DNA of 33,950 bases, taken from assembly GCA_030149025.1 (NCBI GenBank), contig JASBSH010000160.1, positions 1-33,950 on the forward strand. The letters run 5' to 3'. This document shows, piece by piece, positions 1 through 9,155 of this stretch; position 1 is the stretch's first letter, and every line of letters begins with the position of its first letter. The notes below the pieces were generated by a model. It was not told the DNA's origin, made no database searches, and saw only the letters and a program-made list of their open reading frames with translations. The translations under genes and the position numbers were made by a program. This DNA comes from Actinomycetales bacterium. GTDB lineage: Bacteria > Actinomycetota > Actinomycetes > Actinomycetales > BWSM-131.

Positions 1-116
1 GGCGGAGGGTCCCGCCCGCAACCGCGACAGTGCCGCCAATGGTCCCTACCTTGAGGGGTAGGAGGCCGCATGTTGGAGGAGGAGCGCCACGCCGAGCAGG
101 AAGCTTGCCTCCTCAG

Positions 117-2352: not shown

Positions 2353-3651
2353 TCAGCCTCGAAGTCTCTGGCCGGTGCTGACCGCGACGGCGAGCAGCAT
2401 CCAACCGGCGGCGTAGGCGAACGCGGCGGTAGGGCTGAAAAGAGTCCACAGAGCGCCGACGATCACTGACGCTCCCAGATCGCCGAACGACTGAACGAGG
2501 CCGAGCACCCCGAACCCGTTGCCACGCAGCTCGTCGGGCAAGGCCAGAGCGACCCGGGCGGTTTCGGCGGTCTCGGCCGTCCCGATGCCGGCCCCGGCCA
2601 GGACGAAGGCCACCAGGAGGACCGGCCATGTTGCCTGCGGTAGCGCGAACCCGGCGTATGCGATCGCGTACAGGCCGGCGCCGAGGGCGAACACGGGCAG
2701 TGGCCCCCGACGGTCGATGCCGCGCCCACCGAACAGCGCCGTGAGCGCCGCGGCCGCGTTGTGCCCCGCGTACATCAAGATCGCGACGCTCGTCGCGGCG
2801 GTGAGGGACCGGCTGCCGGTATACAACAGCTCCGTGGCTCTCAGGATGAGCAGGGTGGCGGCGACGTTACCGAGCTCGAACGGCAGGATCGGCGCCAGAA
2901 CCCGGGCGAGCCCGGCGCGGCGCAGCTGACCGAGGTTGAGGCTGAGCCGTTGGCGTGCGGCGGCGGTGGTCACGACGCGTTTGGCTTCCCGACCGGCGAC
3001 GGTGATGGCGGCAGCGGCGAACAGACCTGGGATGACGGCGAACAGCATGGCCACCCTGATGCTGGTGACGCTGATCAGAGCCGATGCCAGCAGTGGCCCG
3101 ATCAACGCCCCGAGGTTGTCGCCCGCCCTTTCCAATCCGGCGGCACGCCCGAAGGCTCGCCGGGGCACGAGCGAGACCAGCAGCGCGTCCCGGGCCGGTG
3201 ACCGCAGACCGCGCGAGACCCACGCCGCAGCCCGCAGGGCGCCGGCCTGCCAGACGGTAGCGGCCAGGGCGATGGCGCCGGTCGCCAGAGCCGTGAACAG
3301 GTAACCGCCGACGGCCAGGCGGGCGCGGCGGTCCCGGTCGGCGCTGAGCGGTCCGCCCGCGAGCTTGCTGAGCCCGACGAGGGCGTCGGCGACGCCCTCG
3401 ATCGCTCCGAGAGCCGCCGGTCCGGCGTGCAGCGTGGAGGTGAGGAACGTGGGCAGCAGGCTTGTGGTGAGCTCATGGCCGGCGTCGCTGCCCAAGGACG
3501 CGGCGCCGACGGACAGCACCCCCGGGGTCAACCAGGTTCGGGACCCGTCAGCGTCGTCCCCCGTGGTGGCCGCGTGATCGGGCTCAGCACTGATGGGAAC
3601 CCGGTCTTCGCCCGGGTCCGGCGTCAGATGACGGCGCTGGTCAGAGCCCAT
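2353..3651 (-). CDS. MFS transporter
   Basis: Multiple hydrophobic helices and MFS-like loops (SRGLRSPARDALL, GRAAGLERAGDNLGALIGP); start trimmed to MGSDQRRH, overlapping crcB by 28 nt. Confidence 0.8.
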   Translation of the reverse strand: MGSDQRRHLTPDPGEDRVPISAEPDHAATTGDDADGSRTWLTPGVLSVGAASLGSDAGHELTTSLLPTFLTSTLHAGPAALGAIEGVADALVGLSKLAGGPLSADRDRRARLAVGGYLFTALATGAIALAATVWQAGALRAAAWVSRGLRSPARDALLVSLVPRRAFGRAAGLERAGDNLGALIGPLLASALISVTSIRVAMLFAVIPGLFAAAAITVAGREAKRVVTTAAARQRLSLNLGQLRRAGLARVLAPILPFELGNVAATLLILRATELLYTGSRSLTAATSVAILMYAGHNAAAALTALFGGRGIDRRGPLPVFALGAGLYAIAYAGFALPQATWPVLLVAFVLAGAGIGTAETAETARVALALPDELRGNGFGVLGLVQSFGDLGASVIVGALWTLFSPTAAFAYAAGWMLLAVAVSTGQRLRG

Positions 3652-3995
3652 GACCCGGTGGCGGTGAGAAGGCCGACGACGAGACTGAGGGACGCGTTCA
3701 CGGCGGCCTCCAGGAGGGAGCCTTCCTCGAGCAGGCGGACGGTCTCGAAGCTGAATGTGGAGAAGGTAGTCAGAGCACCGGACAGGCCGGTACCGAGCAG
3801 GGCCAGGGACCATCCCGGCGCAGCGCCGGACGCAGTGGCTGCTGCTACGGCCCCGAGGAGGGCGGAGCCGGCAACGTTGACGCTGAACGTGCCCCAGGGG
3901 TAGACGCTGTCGTGCCGGGTCTGAATGAACCGGTCGGTTAGGTATCGCATTGGGGCTCCCACTGCCCCACCGACGATCACCAGGAGCAGAGTCAC
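3624..3995 (-). CDS. crcB: fluoride efflux transporter CrcB/Fluc family
   Basis: [34 protein letters not shown] motifs typical of CrcB. Confidence 0.92.
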
Positions 3996-4348
3996 GACGG
4001 TTGGTGTTCCGTCGTGACGGCGCCCACGTACTTGACGACGTCAACAGGGTCGAGCATGACCAGGCCCTCGGTGATGAGCTCATCGATCTGCGGGAGGAAC
4101 GCCCGGATCCGGTCGTCGGCGTCCACGATGACGATCGACACCGGCAGGTCCTCCGACAGGGACAGCAGCCGGGTGGTGTGGATCAGGCTCGACTTGCCGT
4201 AGCCCTCCACCCCCCGGAAGACGCTCGCGCCGGCGAGGCCGAAGCGGTGCGCGCGGTGGACGATTTCGGTGTACACCGGCCTGTGGTGCCATTGGTCTGA
4301 CTCCCTGACCAGGACGGTGAGTCGCAATGCCGGGCCTTGCAGAGTCAT
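3992..4348 (-). CDS. DUF190 domain-containing protein
   Basis: [43 protein letters not shown] is the typical DUF190 signature; ATGA overlaps both sides. Confidence 0.9.
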
Positions 4349-4890
4349 CGCTTCCTCCCTCGGTTATCCGCGACGTTCCGTCGCAGTTCTCGCGTCTTCG
4401 CGCCGAGCCGTCTGGAGGCGCTCACCAGGAGCCGGCCGGTGAGCAGGCCGCTCCACAGCGCCAGCAACCCGACGATCAGCGTTCCGCCCAGATACATCGC
4501 TGCAACACCGGGCTGGCCGTGGCCGATCAGGGTCCACGTATCGAGCATGTAGGCGGAGAAGGTCGTGAAACCGCCAAGGACACCCACTCCGAAGAACGGC
4601 CGCAGGTACCGACCCGGTTGCCACACCTCCAGCACGAAAACCATGAAGATGCCGAGCACTGCGCTGCCCAAGACGTTCACCGCCACGGTGCTCCACGGCA
4701 GTTCGCCTGGGGCGTGAGGCAGCAACCCCGAGATGCCGTACCTGGCGGCGCTGCCCAGCGCGCCGCCGAGCGCGATGACGAGCAGGATGTCCCACCGGTG
4801 CCGCACCGCCCTGGCGCCTGCACGAACCCGAGTCGTCGCGGTGGCTGGCTGCTGGACTGGCAGCGTCCTGGAGGACGGCCCGGCCGTCAT
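4345..4890 (-). CDS. crcB: fluoride efflux transporter CrcB/Fluc family (second copy)
   Basis: [38 protein letters not shown]. Confidence 0.92.
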
Positions 4891-4979
4891 GCCAACTCCC
4901 GGACGCCTGTGCGGACGTCAACCCGGTTCGGCATGACGTCGGCGTACATGGGACGGCGCGATGCGCTGATGGTTGGCAT
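4887..4979 (-). CDS. candidate 30-aa leader peptide [30 protein letters not shown]
   Basis: ATG preceded by AGGGAG with 4-6 nt spacing; stop TGA overlaps the crcB ATG (ATGA); below the ORF-track length cutoff. Confidence 0.55.
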   Translation of the reverse strand: MPTISASRRPMYADVMPNRVDVRTGVRELA

Positions 4980-4996
4980 AACTCTCCCTACCCGTT

Positions 4997-5050
4997 GGAT
5001 AGGGACTGTTGGCGACTTCGTCGCGGTTGTCGGCGAGCCCCACCGCCGTC
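4997..5050 (-). ncRNA. fluoride riboswitch-like aptamer (crcB motif)
   Basis: Minus strand GGCG-GUGGGGCU-CGCC-GACAAC-CGCGACGAAGUCGC-CAACAGUCCCUAUCC: P1 GGCG/CGCC, hairpin GCGAC-GAA-GUCGC, 6-bp pseudoknot GGGGCU/AGUCCC, immediately upstream of the crcB operon. Confidence 0.75.
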
Positions 5051-5056
5051 GAGATC

Positions 5057-5062
5057 AGATTA
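5057..5062 (-). promoter_or_regulatory. candidate -10 element TAATCT
   Basis: TAATCT on - strand about 7-10 nt before the aptamer 5' end; no convincing -35. Confidence 0.35.
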
Positions 5063-5128
5063 CCGGACCCGGGCCGGCCGGCCCCATCGCGCGGCTGCGC
5101 TGGATGAGCGGTCAGGCGGGGCGAGTCG

Positions 5129-6631
5129 CTATGCGGTGGTCTGCTCAGCCCCGAACACGGTGTCCCATAGATCCACCGCGTGACTCGTGGCCGCCGGGCT
5201 GCCCGGCAGGATGCGGAAGGTTCGGGTGCCGTCGTCGCTGCGCTCGGCATGCAGCGGCAGGACACGCGCGTCTTCTGACTCGGTGAACGCATGCGCCAGG
5301 GCGTACATGTGGGTCACGTACGCCACACGGACCGCCCGGTCCATCAGAGCGGTGACCACGTCGGTGGCGATCGCAGTTCCCTCGTGTTCGTAGGTGGAGG
5401 CGAACGACTCGTTGAGCAGCACCAGGCCCCCGGCAGGCAGCCTGTCGACCAGGCCACTCATCCGCCGCAGTTCCTCGTCCAGCTTGCCGCTGGTCATCGA
5501 GGCGTCCTCCTCGCGACGGAAATGCGTGAACACCCCGGTGCGAAGATCGAGGGTCGCCTGCTCGGCGGCCACCGGCATCCCTGCCTGCGCCATCATCTGA
5601 GCCAGGCCGAGGCTACGCAGGAACGTGGACTTACCGCCGCTGTTGGCGCCCGTGATCAGCAGCAGCAGCTTGCCGTCTCCTTCCACATCGTTGCCCACCA
5701 CAGGACCACCGGTCCGGAGAGCCAGGGCCGGGTCCCGGAGCCCGCGGGCGGTCAGCCGACCATCGCCGGCCGGTGTGACGGTGGGCAGGCAGGTCGGAGT
5801 GCCGGTGTCGACCAGTGCCTGATCCAGGTTGACACAGCCGAGGTAGAAGGCCGTTTGCGTTCGCAGCTCGGTCAGCCAGCCGAGGATGTGGCGGGCGGAC
5901 CGGTCCAGCACCTCGGCGACCTGCCCCACGGACCGGTCCCGCATGGCGGACAGCGCGTCCGCGCCGGCGTCGTCGCGCGGTGGGATGACGAACGTGTAGG
6001 CGTGCCCCAGTGGTGGAGGGGCCAGCTCCTTCCAGGGTCGGTGGGCTGGAGGCCGGTGCAGCTCGTATCCCCGCACTGAGTTCCACTTACCGAGGTGGGC
6101 GTCTACCGAGATTGCCTCGGAGCGCAGCGCTCGCAGGTACTCCGAGACCTCGTCCAGGTAGTCCTCCGCGAGGTCGTGCGCCTGGCGCTCCAGCAAGCCC
6201 TGCAGGGGGGCGGACTGCACGAGGTCGCGGTTGTCCTCGGCCAGCCGACGCAGCTCTCGCAGGTGATCCATCAGCACGCTGACCACGTCGACCGCGCGCC
6301 GCAGGGCCGCGGTGGAGTGGGTCTGGGTGAACCAGGAGCGCCGTACCCCACGCTCGGCCTCGAGCGCCTCCACGGTGCACCGGTACAGGTCGCGGATCAG
6401 GGCAGGCTGGGCCAGCACGTCGGTGAGCACCTGGTGCCGGTGCTGAACCTGCTCCACCGTCGTGGCTGGGTTTAGCAGAGCGTTGCTGACCACATCGGCG
6501 ATGAAACGATCACCCGAAGCAGCTGCGTTGATCACCACGTCCAGGCCTAGGTCCTGAACGAGGTCGTTGGCGTGGCTCGGCACGGGAAGGTGGCGGGTCT
6601 CCTCGCCCGGGTTCATCAACTGCACCTTCAC
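5129..6631 (-). CDS. MutS-like ATPase (MutS domain V family protein)
   Basis: GANSGGKST Walker A, SGKLDEELRRM, LVLLNESFAST Walker B region, THMYALAH. Confidence 0.85.
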   Translation of the reverse strand: MKVQLMNPGEETRHLPVPSHANDLVQDLGLDVVINAAASGDRFIADVVSNALLNPATTVEQVQHRHQVLTDVLAQPALIRDLYRCTVEALEAERGVRRSWFTQTHSTAALRRAVDVVSVLMDHLRELRRLAEDNRDLVQSAPLQGLLERQAHDLAEDYLDEVSEYLRALRSEAISVDAHLGKWNSVRGYELHRPPAHRPWKELAPPPLGHAYTFVIPPRDDAGADALSAMRDRSVGQVAEVLDRSARHILGWLTELRTQTAFYLGCVNLDQALVDTGTPTCLPTVTPAGDGRLTARGLRDPALALRTGGPVVGNDVEGDGKLLLLITGANSGGKSTFLRSLGLAQMMAQAGMPVAAEQATLDLRTGVFTHFRREEDASMTSGKLDEELRRMSGLVDRLPAGGLVLLNESFASTYEHEGTAIATDVVTALMDRAVRVAYVTHMYALAHAFTESEDARVLPLHAERSDDGTRTFRILPGSPAATSHAVDLWDTVFGAEQTTA

Positions 6632-8229
6632 GTCTGGATCCTCTCGGTCAGCTGCGCGTACCTGAGCCCGTACCGGGAGGCCAGGGCCAACGCGTGGGCG
6701 GTGCCGTTGGCAGGTCGCCTGGTGACCTTGAACGTCCGCACCGTCGGGTCGCGGGGGTCCACCTCCGCCAGCATGCTGACGGTCGCGGGACCCAGCTCGC
6801 TCAGAGCGTCCAGGAAGGTCACGTAGACGGTGGTGATCCGCCGTTCGACCAGGTTGGTGAGGACCCGCCGGCCCAGCTCCAGGGCGTCGGTGAGGGATGT
6901 AGAGGTGAAGATCTCGTTGATCACCACCAGGCTTCGAGGTGTTGCCCGCTCGAGCAGGCTCTTGAGCCGGCGTAGGTCGGACTCCAGCTTGCCGCTCGGG
7001 TCGCTCAGGTCCTCAGCCTGCTCGAAGTGGGTCAACACAGCATCGACGAGCGGGACGGTGACACGCCGTCCCGGCACAGGCACCCCGATCGCCGCCAGGT
7101 GATGGACCTGTCCGACCATTCGGGCGAAGGTGGTCTTTCCGCCCTGGTTGGGGCCAGTCACCACCAGCACCCGTTCTGGCCCGGTCAGCTCGGCGTCGTT
7201 ACAGACCACCTCACCTCCCGTCGATGTCGACTTCGCAGCCAGTGCCAGGTCGAACGAGTCGGTCAGGCACACCTCGGCTCCCCCGGCACGGACCTCCGGG
7301 TAGCAGAACGGCATGCCGACTCGCGTCAACGGGTTGATGAAGTCCAGGTAAGACAAGAAGAACCGCAGCTCTTCGTCCCATCGCCGCACCCGCTCGTCGA
7401 TGAAGTCCTGGTGCTCCAGGCAGTGCTCTGCGAGTGCTCGGAATGGCTCCGGGTGCAGGCGCGCCACGAGGTTGACGACCTGGGCTTCCACATGGGTTGT
7501 ACCGGGGTCCTTGACGGGATCGACCCCGGCACTCGAGGTATCGCCCTCCATTCGGAACCGGTCGAACAGCTCCTCGACCTCGGCCGGGAAGTCCCTGCCG
7601 CCGATCGGCGGCACGACCGTCACCCGGTCGGTTCGCAGCCGCATCCCGAACCGCACATCAGCAAGGTCGGCCAGCACCCGTGCCGTCTGCTGTGTCATCG
7701 TTCGAAAGCCCGGGGAGTCCACGTACCCGCCCAGTTGCTCACGCACCAGCTGGAGGGCCACCGAGCGCAGGTTGGCCCGGGTGAGGGCGACGGACAGACG
7801 CGTCGTGGCATCGCAGTAGCCATCGATCGCCTCCACGTGCCAGCGACGAGCGTGCCAGCGGAACCAGTCACTCGCGCGCCGTTCCCGCTGCAGGGCCAGC
7901 CGCACCGCCGCCATGTTGTCCCGGAACCGACGCAGCGCTTCCTGCAGGTCCTCGTCCTCCAGGTCGCGAAACACATCCTGACGCCAAAGAACCTGATCAA
8001 CATCAGTGAGCACGCGACTCAGGAGGTCGTGAAGTGGGGTGTCCGAACGACCACCCACGATCGTGCTGAGCACCTGATCGAGGTTCAGATCGACCAACGT
8101 CGCTCGGAACGCCGCGGAGCCGGACGATGCACCAGGCGACGTCAGCAGACTTGCGACAGAGTCGTTCTCACGCCCCTGCTCGGCTTCCTGATCGGTGACT
8201 CTTACCCACTCGACTGCACCAGATCCCAT
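6628..8229 (-). CDS. MutS-like ATPase (second paralogue)
   Basis: GPNQGGKTT Walker A, SGKLESDLRRLKSLL, LVVINEIFTSTS; ATGA overlap with the downstream paralogue. Confidence 0.85.
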   Translation of the reverse strand: MGSGAVEWVRVTDQEAEQGRENDSVASLLTSPGASSGSAAFRATLVDLNLDQVLSTIVGGRSDTPLHDLLSRVLTDVDQVLWRQDVFRDLEDEDLQEALRRFRDNMAAVRLALQRERRASDWFRWHARRWHVEAIDGYCDATTRLSVALTRANLRSVALQLVREQLGGYVDSPGFRTMTQQTARVLADLADVRFGMRLRTDRVTVVPPIGGRDFPAEVEELFDRFRMEGDTSSAGVDPVKDPGTTHVEAQVVNLVARLHPEPFRALAEHCLEHQDFIDERVRRWDEELRFFLSYLDFINPLTRVGMPFCYPEVRAGGAEVCLTDSFDLALAAKSTSTGGEVVCNDAELTGPERVLVVTGPNQGGKTTFARMVGQVHHLAAIGVPVPGRRVTVPLVDAVLTHFEQAEDLSDPSGKLESDLRRLKSLLERATPRSLVVINEIFTSTSLTDALELGRRVLTNLVERRITTVYVTFLDALSELGPATVSMLAEVDPRDPTVRTFKVTRRPANGTAHALALASRYGLRYAQLTERIQT

Positions 8230-8390
8230 CGGTCCACCTGCACGCTCGTGTCGTGTCAGGGACCGTCAGCGGTGCTCCGCGGTGTCCGGCGAGCCCCATC
8301 GCCGCATCAACACGGTACGACAGTGACCTGACCGGTGCCAGTCGACGGGATCGACGGCGCCTCACACGCCACTGACCTGTGAAAATGTGG

Positions 8391-8464
8391 GGTGAGTGAC
8401 GGGACTTGAACCCGCGACATCCTGGACCACAACCAGGTGCTCTACCAGCTGAGCTACACCCACC
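8391..8464 (-). tRNA. tRNA-His (GTG)
   Basis: Cloverleaf with anticodon loop TTGTGGT, T-arm GGGTTCAAGTCCC, extra G-1 opposite C73, followed by encoded CCA (8388-8390). Confidence 0.95.
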
Positions 8465-8525
8465 ACGCCCCGGACCCGGCAGAGAACTGGCTCAACGGAG
8501 CCCGAGCGCAGAACGAGTGTAGCGG

Positions 8526-9155
8526 TCAGCTCTCGGTGCTCTGCACAGCGCCGGTGTGCTTGGCAGCGATCTTCTTAACGGTGTCGCTGTCGGGGCCGGG
8601 CGCAGGCACGAAGATCGCCTCCCGGTAATACTTCAGCTCGGTGATGCTCTCCCGGATGTCGGCGAGCGCCCGGTGCCCGCCCTTCTTCTCCGGAGCGGCG
8701 AAGTAGGCCCGGGTGTACCACCGCCGTGCCAGCTCCTTCACGCTGGAGACGTCGATGATCCGGTAGTGCAGCCAGCGCTCGAGCTCGGGCATGTCTCGCG
8801 CCAGGAAGCCGCGGTCGGTGCCGACCGAGTTGCCGGCCAGCGGCGCGCGCAGCGGCTCGGGCACCCACTCCTTGACGTACTCCAGGACCAGCCGCTGCGC
8901 CTCCTCCATCGACACACCCTCCGGCAGCTCGTCCAGCAGCCCCGACTCCGTGTGCATCTCGCGGACCACGTCCTGCATCTGCTCCAACGCGGCGTCCGGC
9001 GGGCTGATCACCACCTGCACCCCGTCGCCCAGGACGTTGAGCTCGGAGTCGGTGACGAGTGCCGCGACCTCGATCAGCGCGTCCGCTGCCAGGTCCAGAC
9101 CTGTCATCTCGCAGTCGATCCAGACGATCCGCTGAGCGGAGACTGAGGAGTTCAC
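8526..9155 (-). CDS. orn: oligoribonuclease
   Basis: IVWIDCEMTGLD, DRGFLARDMPEL, YRIIDVSSVKEL, HRALADIRESI; GTG start. Confidence 0.93.
   Translation of the reverse strand: MNSSVSAQRIVWIDCEMTGLDLAADALIEVAALVTDSELNVLGDGVQVVISPPDAALEQMQDVVREMHTESGLLDELPEGVSMEEAQRLVLEYVKEWVPEPLRAPLAGNSVGTDRGFLARDMPELERWLHYRIIDVSSVKELARRWYTRAYFAAPEKKGGHRALADIRESITELKYYREAIFVPAPGPDSDTVKKIAAKHTGAVQSTES

Follow-up and report, generated by a model that had tools for sequence, protein, structure and literature searches.

In the crystal structure of the T. petrophila fluoride aptamer (PDB 4ENC), A6-U38 is paired in reversed Watson-Crick and A40-U48 in reversed Hoogsteen geometry (PMC11586693). Studies of the B. cereus riboswitch reported fluoride-dependent protection of the reversed Watson-Crick pair and a linchpin role of A40-U48 (PMC10687018; PMC8752731). 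The known fluoride-riboswitch genes include mutS, enolase, pyrophosphatase, and formate hydrogenlyase (PMC2864571; PMC11139923).

We analyzed a 33,950-nt stretch (positions 1 to 33,950, hereafter the window) of contig JASBSH010000160.1 from an Actinomycetales bacterium (GCA_030149025.1). The aptamer RS1 is located 106 nt upstream of crcB1, within the 238-nt gap between this gene and a MutS-domain gene, and is followed by the fluoride-resistance genes crcB1-DUF190-crcB2 (Table 1). RS1 is very probably a fluoride riboswitch of an Actinomycetes-wide variant in which G6-C38 takes the place of A6-U38, A that of G39, and usually C that of U41, and which would act in the manner proposed below.

Table 1. 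Positions of the aptamers, their elements, and the neighboring genes in the window
Feature	Position	Strand	Remarks
RS1, G6/C38-type fluoride aptamer	4997..5051	-	RF01734 and R2 matches, alignment, covariation
RS1 P1	5048-5044 with 5035-5031	-	
RS1 P3	5024-5020 with 5016-5012	-	GAA loop
RS1 pseudoknot	5041-5036 with 5002-5007	-	six pairs
RS1 key positions	6 = G5043, 38 = C5011, 39 = A5010, 40 = A5009, 41 = C5008, 48 = U5001	-	
Competing hairpin	4985..5005	-	UCCCUAUCC-AAC-GGGUAGGGA, 9 pairs; pairing read from sequence
Leader ORF	4887..4979	-	30 codons; TGA overlaps crcB1 ATG (ATGA)
crcB1	4345..4890	-	Fluc fluoride channel family, CRCB PF02537, E 1.5e-25
DUF190 protein	3992..4348	-	PF02641; between crcB1 and crcB2
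crcB2	3624..3995	-	PF02537
Two MutS domain V genes	8229-6628 and 6631-5129	-	between RS2 and RS1
RS2, canonical A6-U38 aptamer	8254..8307	-	RF01734 26.7 bits, below cut-off; upstream of the two MutS_V genes
Third aptamer-like match	1..51	+	G6/C38 with U7 changed to A; 5' end lost to contig start

Anatomy of RS1 and its match to RF01734

At a relaxed threshold, the Rfam model RF01734 matched RS1 at 5056-4993 from end to end (model positions 1-64), with a score of 22.9 bits against the gathering score, the Rfam cut-off, of 34 bits. The E-value was 9e-4 for 1.1 kb searched with 4227 families and 5.9e-4 for the entire 2.96 Mb genome. Covariance model R2, which was made from 15 homologues with the window sequence excluded, gave RS1 67.7 bits (E 1.3e-20), while the fourth-best site of the window scored only 15.6 bits; a chance match was thereby ruled out. 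The core of RS1 carries the changes G39A, U41C, and G42A, and the conserved UGAUG at positions 38-42 reads CAACA in RS1 and CAACR in most members of its type. By cut-off and by core identity, RS1 is not a formal member of RF01734. Its fold, covariation, and context mark it as a homologous variant that most likely works in the same way.

The first-pass annotation had described a divergent fluoride riboswitch on the minus strand, and the sequence it quoted was found there at 5047-4997. As it stated, P1, the second hairpin, and the pseudoknot are retained. The three changes that it called paired are real (G-C at 6/38, G-C at 9/46, and U-A at 13/42), A40 and U48 are unchanged, the core does differ, and the low score that it anticipated for the standard model was obtained. 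At the third aptamer-like match (plus strand), a CCUACC/GGUAGG hairpin over AGGAGG lies downstream and is followed by a 16-codon ORF.

Covariation and distribution of the G6-C38 form

A protein-based search of genome contigs yielded only 3 loci, with both aptamer types among them. Model R1, which included RS1 and RS2 among its sequences, was searched against a class-wide sample of 396 genomes, where strong matches were present. A total of 87 matches were aligned, and discarding duplicates and two poor matches reduced this set to 83 aptamers; the L116 and L107 matches were excluded as misaligned or false. Because the search model contained P1 and P3 only, the counts for the pseudoknot and for pair 6-38 are independent of it.

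In the aligned homologues, 98.9% of cells were paired and 12 of 17 pairs had changed on both sides; none of 500 shuffles reached the observed values on any measure. P1, P3, the pseudoknot, and pair 6-38 covaried beyond both the shuffles and slid controls. Cells were paired in 98.1% of cases in P1 (3 of 5 pairs changed on both sides), 99.1% in P3 (4 of 4), and 99.4% in the pseudoknot between the P1 loop and the 3' strand (4 of 6). The compensatory changes suspected in the first-pass annotation, a reading that depended on covariation in homologous leaders, are thus supported by the alignment.

Among distinct rows, pair 6-38 was G-C in 66, A-U in 16, G-U in 1, and another combination in 1, and A40-U48 was A-U in 83 of 85. 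Counted by aptamer, 66 of the 83 had G6 (65 with C38, 1 with U38) and 17 had A6 (16 with U38, 1 with C38), giving 65 G6-C38, 16 A6-U38, 1 G-U, and 1 A-C; A40 was present in 82 of 83 and U48 in all 83. The aptamers fell into an A type with A6, U38, and G39, and a G type with G6 and C38, in almost every case accompanied by A39 and C41. Within the G type, pair 13-42 was C-G in 35, U-A in 20, and U-G in 10. With 66 G-type aptamers found, the idea of RS1 as a lone divergent copy was discarded. The tree of downstream CrcB proteins needed 3 changes between types, at least 2 of them forced by well-supported branches; because switches between the two types are few, the 6-38 counts mostly reflect inheritance and not independent events.

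Read against the crystal structure, the change from A6/U38 to G/C would exchange this tertiary pair as a unit. Such a swap from A-U to G-C is chemically sensible given the reversed Watson-Crick geometry named for A6-U38 (PMC11586693). In natural aptamers, the A-U tertiary pair that the solved structure shows at the fluoride site appears to be replaceable as a whole, and evolution thus tests the crystal-structure model. Coordination of the magnesium ions that bind fluoride comes from backbone phosphates near positions 6-8 and 41-42, and a base change therefore need not abolish binding. The single changes at 6 and 38 together with the double change offer a ready mutant set for measurement. Some G-type aptamers have A instead of U at position 7, a core position adjoining the ion site; this sub-variant was observed in L051, L063, L096, L101:3186-3238, L103:556-613, and window 1-51.

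In a phylum-wide sample, all 22 aptamers fetched from other classes were A-U, which suggests that the G type arose within Actinomycetes. Named carriers among plasmid records were Streptomyces sp. F8 pFRL5, S. nigrescens HEK616, and Embleya sp. NBC_00888, and no Rfam match at cut-off was present in the carrier stretches of these three. In 40 genomes carrying the G type, no G-type aptamer was at or over the RF01734 cut-off, and the other G-type members with a listed score ranged from 17.1 to 28.9 bits. No RF01734 match of any kind exceeded the cut-off in 37 of the 40; the other three genomes had nine such matches, none of them at a G-type site. The over-cut-off matches that were inspected all had A6, one of them with C38 instead of U38. 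At the level of sequence, the G6-C38 form is a class-wide variant of the fluoride riboswitch that lies under the Rfam threshold. No prior description of it was found in the openly readable literature. About 15% of Fluc genes are reported to be under riboswitches (PMC11139923), and because Rfam misses the variant, this share is probably too low for Actinomycetes, Streptomyces included.

Genes downstream of the two aptamer types

The gene context of RS1 is conserved: crcB was located downstream of 55 of the 66 G-type aptamers, commonly as crcB1-DUF190-crcB2. Other G-type aptamers preceded MFS transporters, dynamin-like GTPases, and one divergent CRCB-family protein (L090:3055-3441, plus strand; 36.8 bits, cut-off 32.9), which lies directly downstream of its aptamer. 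A-type aptamers of the same class mostly preceded genes other than crcB, namely those for pyrophosphatase, enolase with NUDIX, NADHdh-type subunits, MutS, an ABC-F-like ATPase, and Usp. Seven genomes carried both types; where the gene was identified, the G type preceded crcB, MFS, or dynamin genes, and the A type mainly enzymes. Comparison of aptamer type with crcB or other genes gave a Fisher p of 6e-8, uncorrected for kinship, and for this reason the partition of the two types by downstream gene is a lead, not proof.

In genomes with several aptamers (L090, L101, L103, L115, L092, L106), the G type was found on transporters and the A type mostly on enzymes, and threshold tuning is possible there. 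We tentatively consider, as a rather doubtful extension, that Actinomycetes run G6-C38 on exporters and A6-U38 mainly on fluoride-sensitive enzymes and repair genes, so that different thresholds would switch on export and damage repair in order. In the window, genes for an MFS protein and a dynamin-like GTPase come after the crcB operon (4083-642, minus strand). The same families directly follow G-type aptamers elsewhere (L092, L096, L059, L094, L108), and because of this, both genes may be part of the fluoride response.

Expression platform and comparison with known systems

The 3' end of RS1 is complementary to the Shine-Dalgarno region that follows it. Strand 5005-4997 can pair with 4993-4985, which takes up the 3' pseudoknot strand and U48, and the resulting hairpin occupies most of the Shine-Dalgarno AGGGAG (4989-4984) ahead of the ATG at 4979. 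Across the homologues, the aptamer tail fitted its own Shine-Dalgarno region better than swapped ones at 63 of 76 loci (Wilcoxon p 3.6e-8), and at least 3 of the last 5 Shine-Dalgarno bases were covered in 61 of 76. A minimum-energy hairpin pairing positions 44-48 downstream was obtained for 64 of 83 native sequences versus 47% of shuffles; because a masking hairpin is also common in shuffled GC-rich sequence, the swap control alone is informative, and the shuffle test was set aside in its favor. A simple fold of the RS1 leader had a z of -1.2, which is uninformative alone. No terminator was found near RS1, and the sole terminator-like site in 3500-8600 lies elsewhere, which argues against an intrinsic terminator for RS1. 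Since the aptamer 3' end pairs with the Shine-Dalgarno site and no terminator is seen, the expression platform is likely one of fluoride-dependent translational activation.

At most loci, the start codon nearest downstream of the Shine-Dalgarno site shares the crcB reading frame. In the window, L038, and L040, this codon instead opens a short ORF, of 30, 24, and 21 codons, respectively, that overlaps or abuts crcB1; L038 and L040 are two Thermomonosporaceae records in which the leader ORF likewise runs up to the crcB1 start. This arrangement suggests translational coupling. No sigma-70 promoter match was found for RS1; TAATCT at 5062-5057 is a suggestive promoter element at most, and the placement of TANNNT across all loci gave loose peaks only.

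In the proposed working, fluoride, the presumed ligand, would together with its magnesium ions stabilize the pseudoknot and the A40-U48 pair. The stabilized pseudoknot would hold the CCCU strand and leave the Shine-Dalgarno AGGGAG free; without fluoride, the CCCU strand would enter the 9-pair hairpin with the Shine-Dalgarno region, and initiation would be blocked. With the Shine-Dalgarno freed, the ribosome in this genome would translate the 30-codon leader ORF, pass to crcB1 via the overlapping ATGA, and continue to DUF190 and crcB2.

The G type might have kept the fold and changed its ligand or affinity, responding to another ion or to a fluoride threshold unlike that of the A type. Four core positions differ together, and in the seven genomes that carry both, G-type aptamers stand, where the gene was identified, before crcB, MFS, or dynamin genes and A-type aptamers mainly before pyrophosphatase, enolase, NUDIX, NADHdh-type subunit, and MutS genes. 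However, crcB, of the fluoride channel family, is by far the most frequent downstream gene, and A-type aptamers also precede crcB in L038, L040, and order relatives such as L009 and L020. We consider such a change improbable overall, and a changed ligand unlikely.

Transcriptional control through a leader terminator, intrinsic or Rho-type, has precedents, as the best-studied fluoride riboswitch, that of B. cereus, uses antitermination (PMC10687018) and terminators often overlap crcB motifs (PMC2864571). At RS1, however, no U-run follows the hairpin, the one terminator-like site lies away from the leader, and in most loci the hairpin ends on the Shine-Dalgarno site, all of which make this mode quite improbable. 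The low Rfam score could also suggest a decayed, non-functional former riboswitch or a chance resemblance, but 65 further G-type aptamers share its sequence core, with covariation and a crcB context, and the probability of this reading is negligible. A functional fluoride riboswitch acting on translation thus remains our preferred reading of RS1.

RS1 has the topology and the A40-U48 reversed Hoogsteen pair in common with the T. petrophila aptamer (PDB 4ENC, PMC11586693), whereas the reversed Watson-Crick pair, A6-U38 in T. petrophila, would be G-C in RS1. Compared with RF01734, RS1 shares P1, P3, the six-pair pseudoknot, A40-U48, the AACCGC linker, full-length alignment, and the crcB and mutS context; RS1 and the G type differ from it in G6-C38 for A6-U38, A for G39, and mostly C for U41. 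The B. cereus crcB riboswitch resembles RS1 in aptamer fold, long-range tertiary pairs, and gene, but it works through a terminator, while Shine-Dalgarno masking is predicted for RS1. The Levitt pair 15-48 of tRNA, a reversed Watson-Crick tertiary pair that occurs as G-C or A-U, parallels 6-38; as it belongs to a different RNA, the likeness is an analogy for the tolerance of the swap, not kinship.
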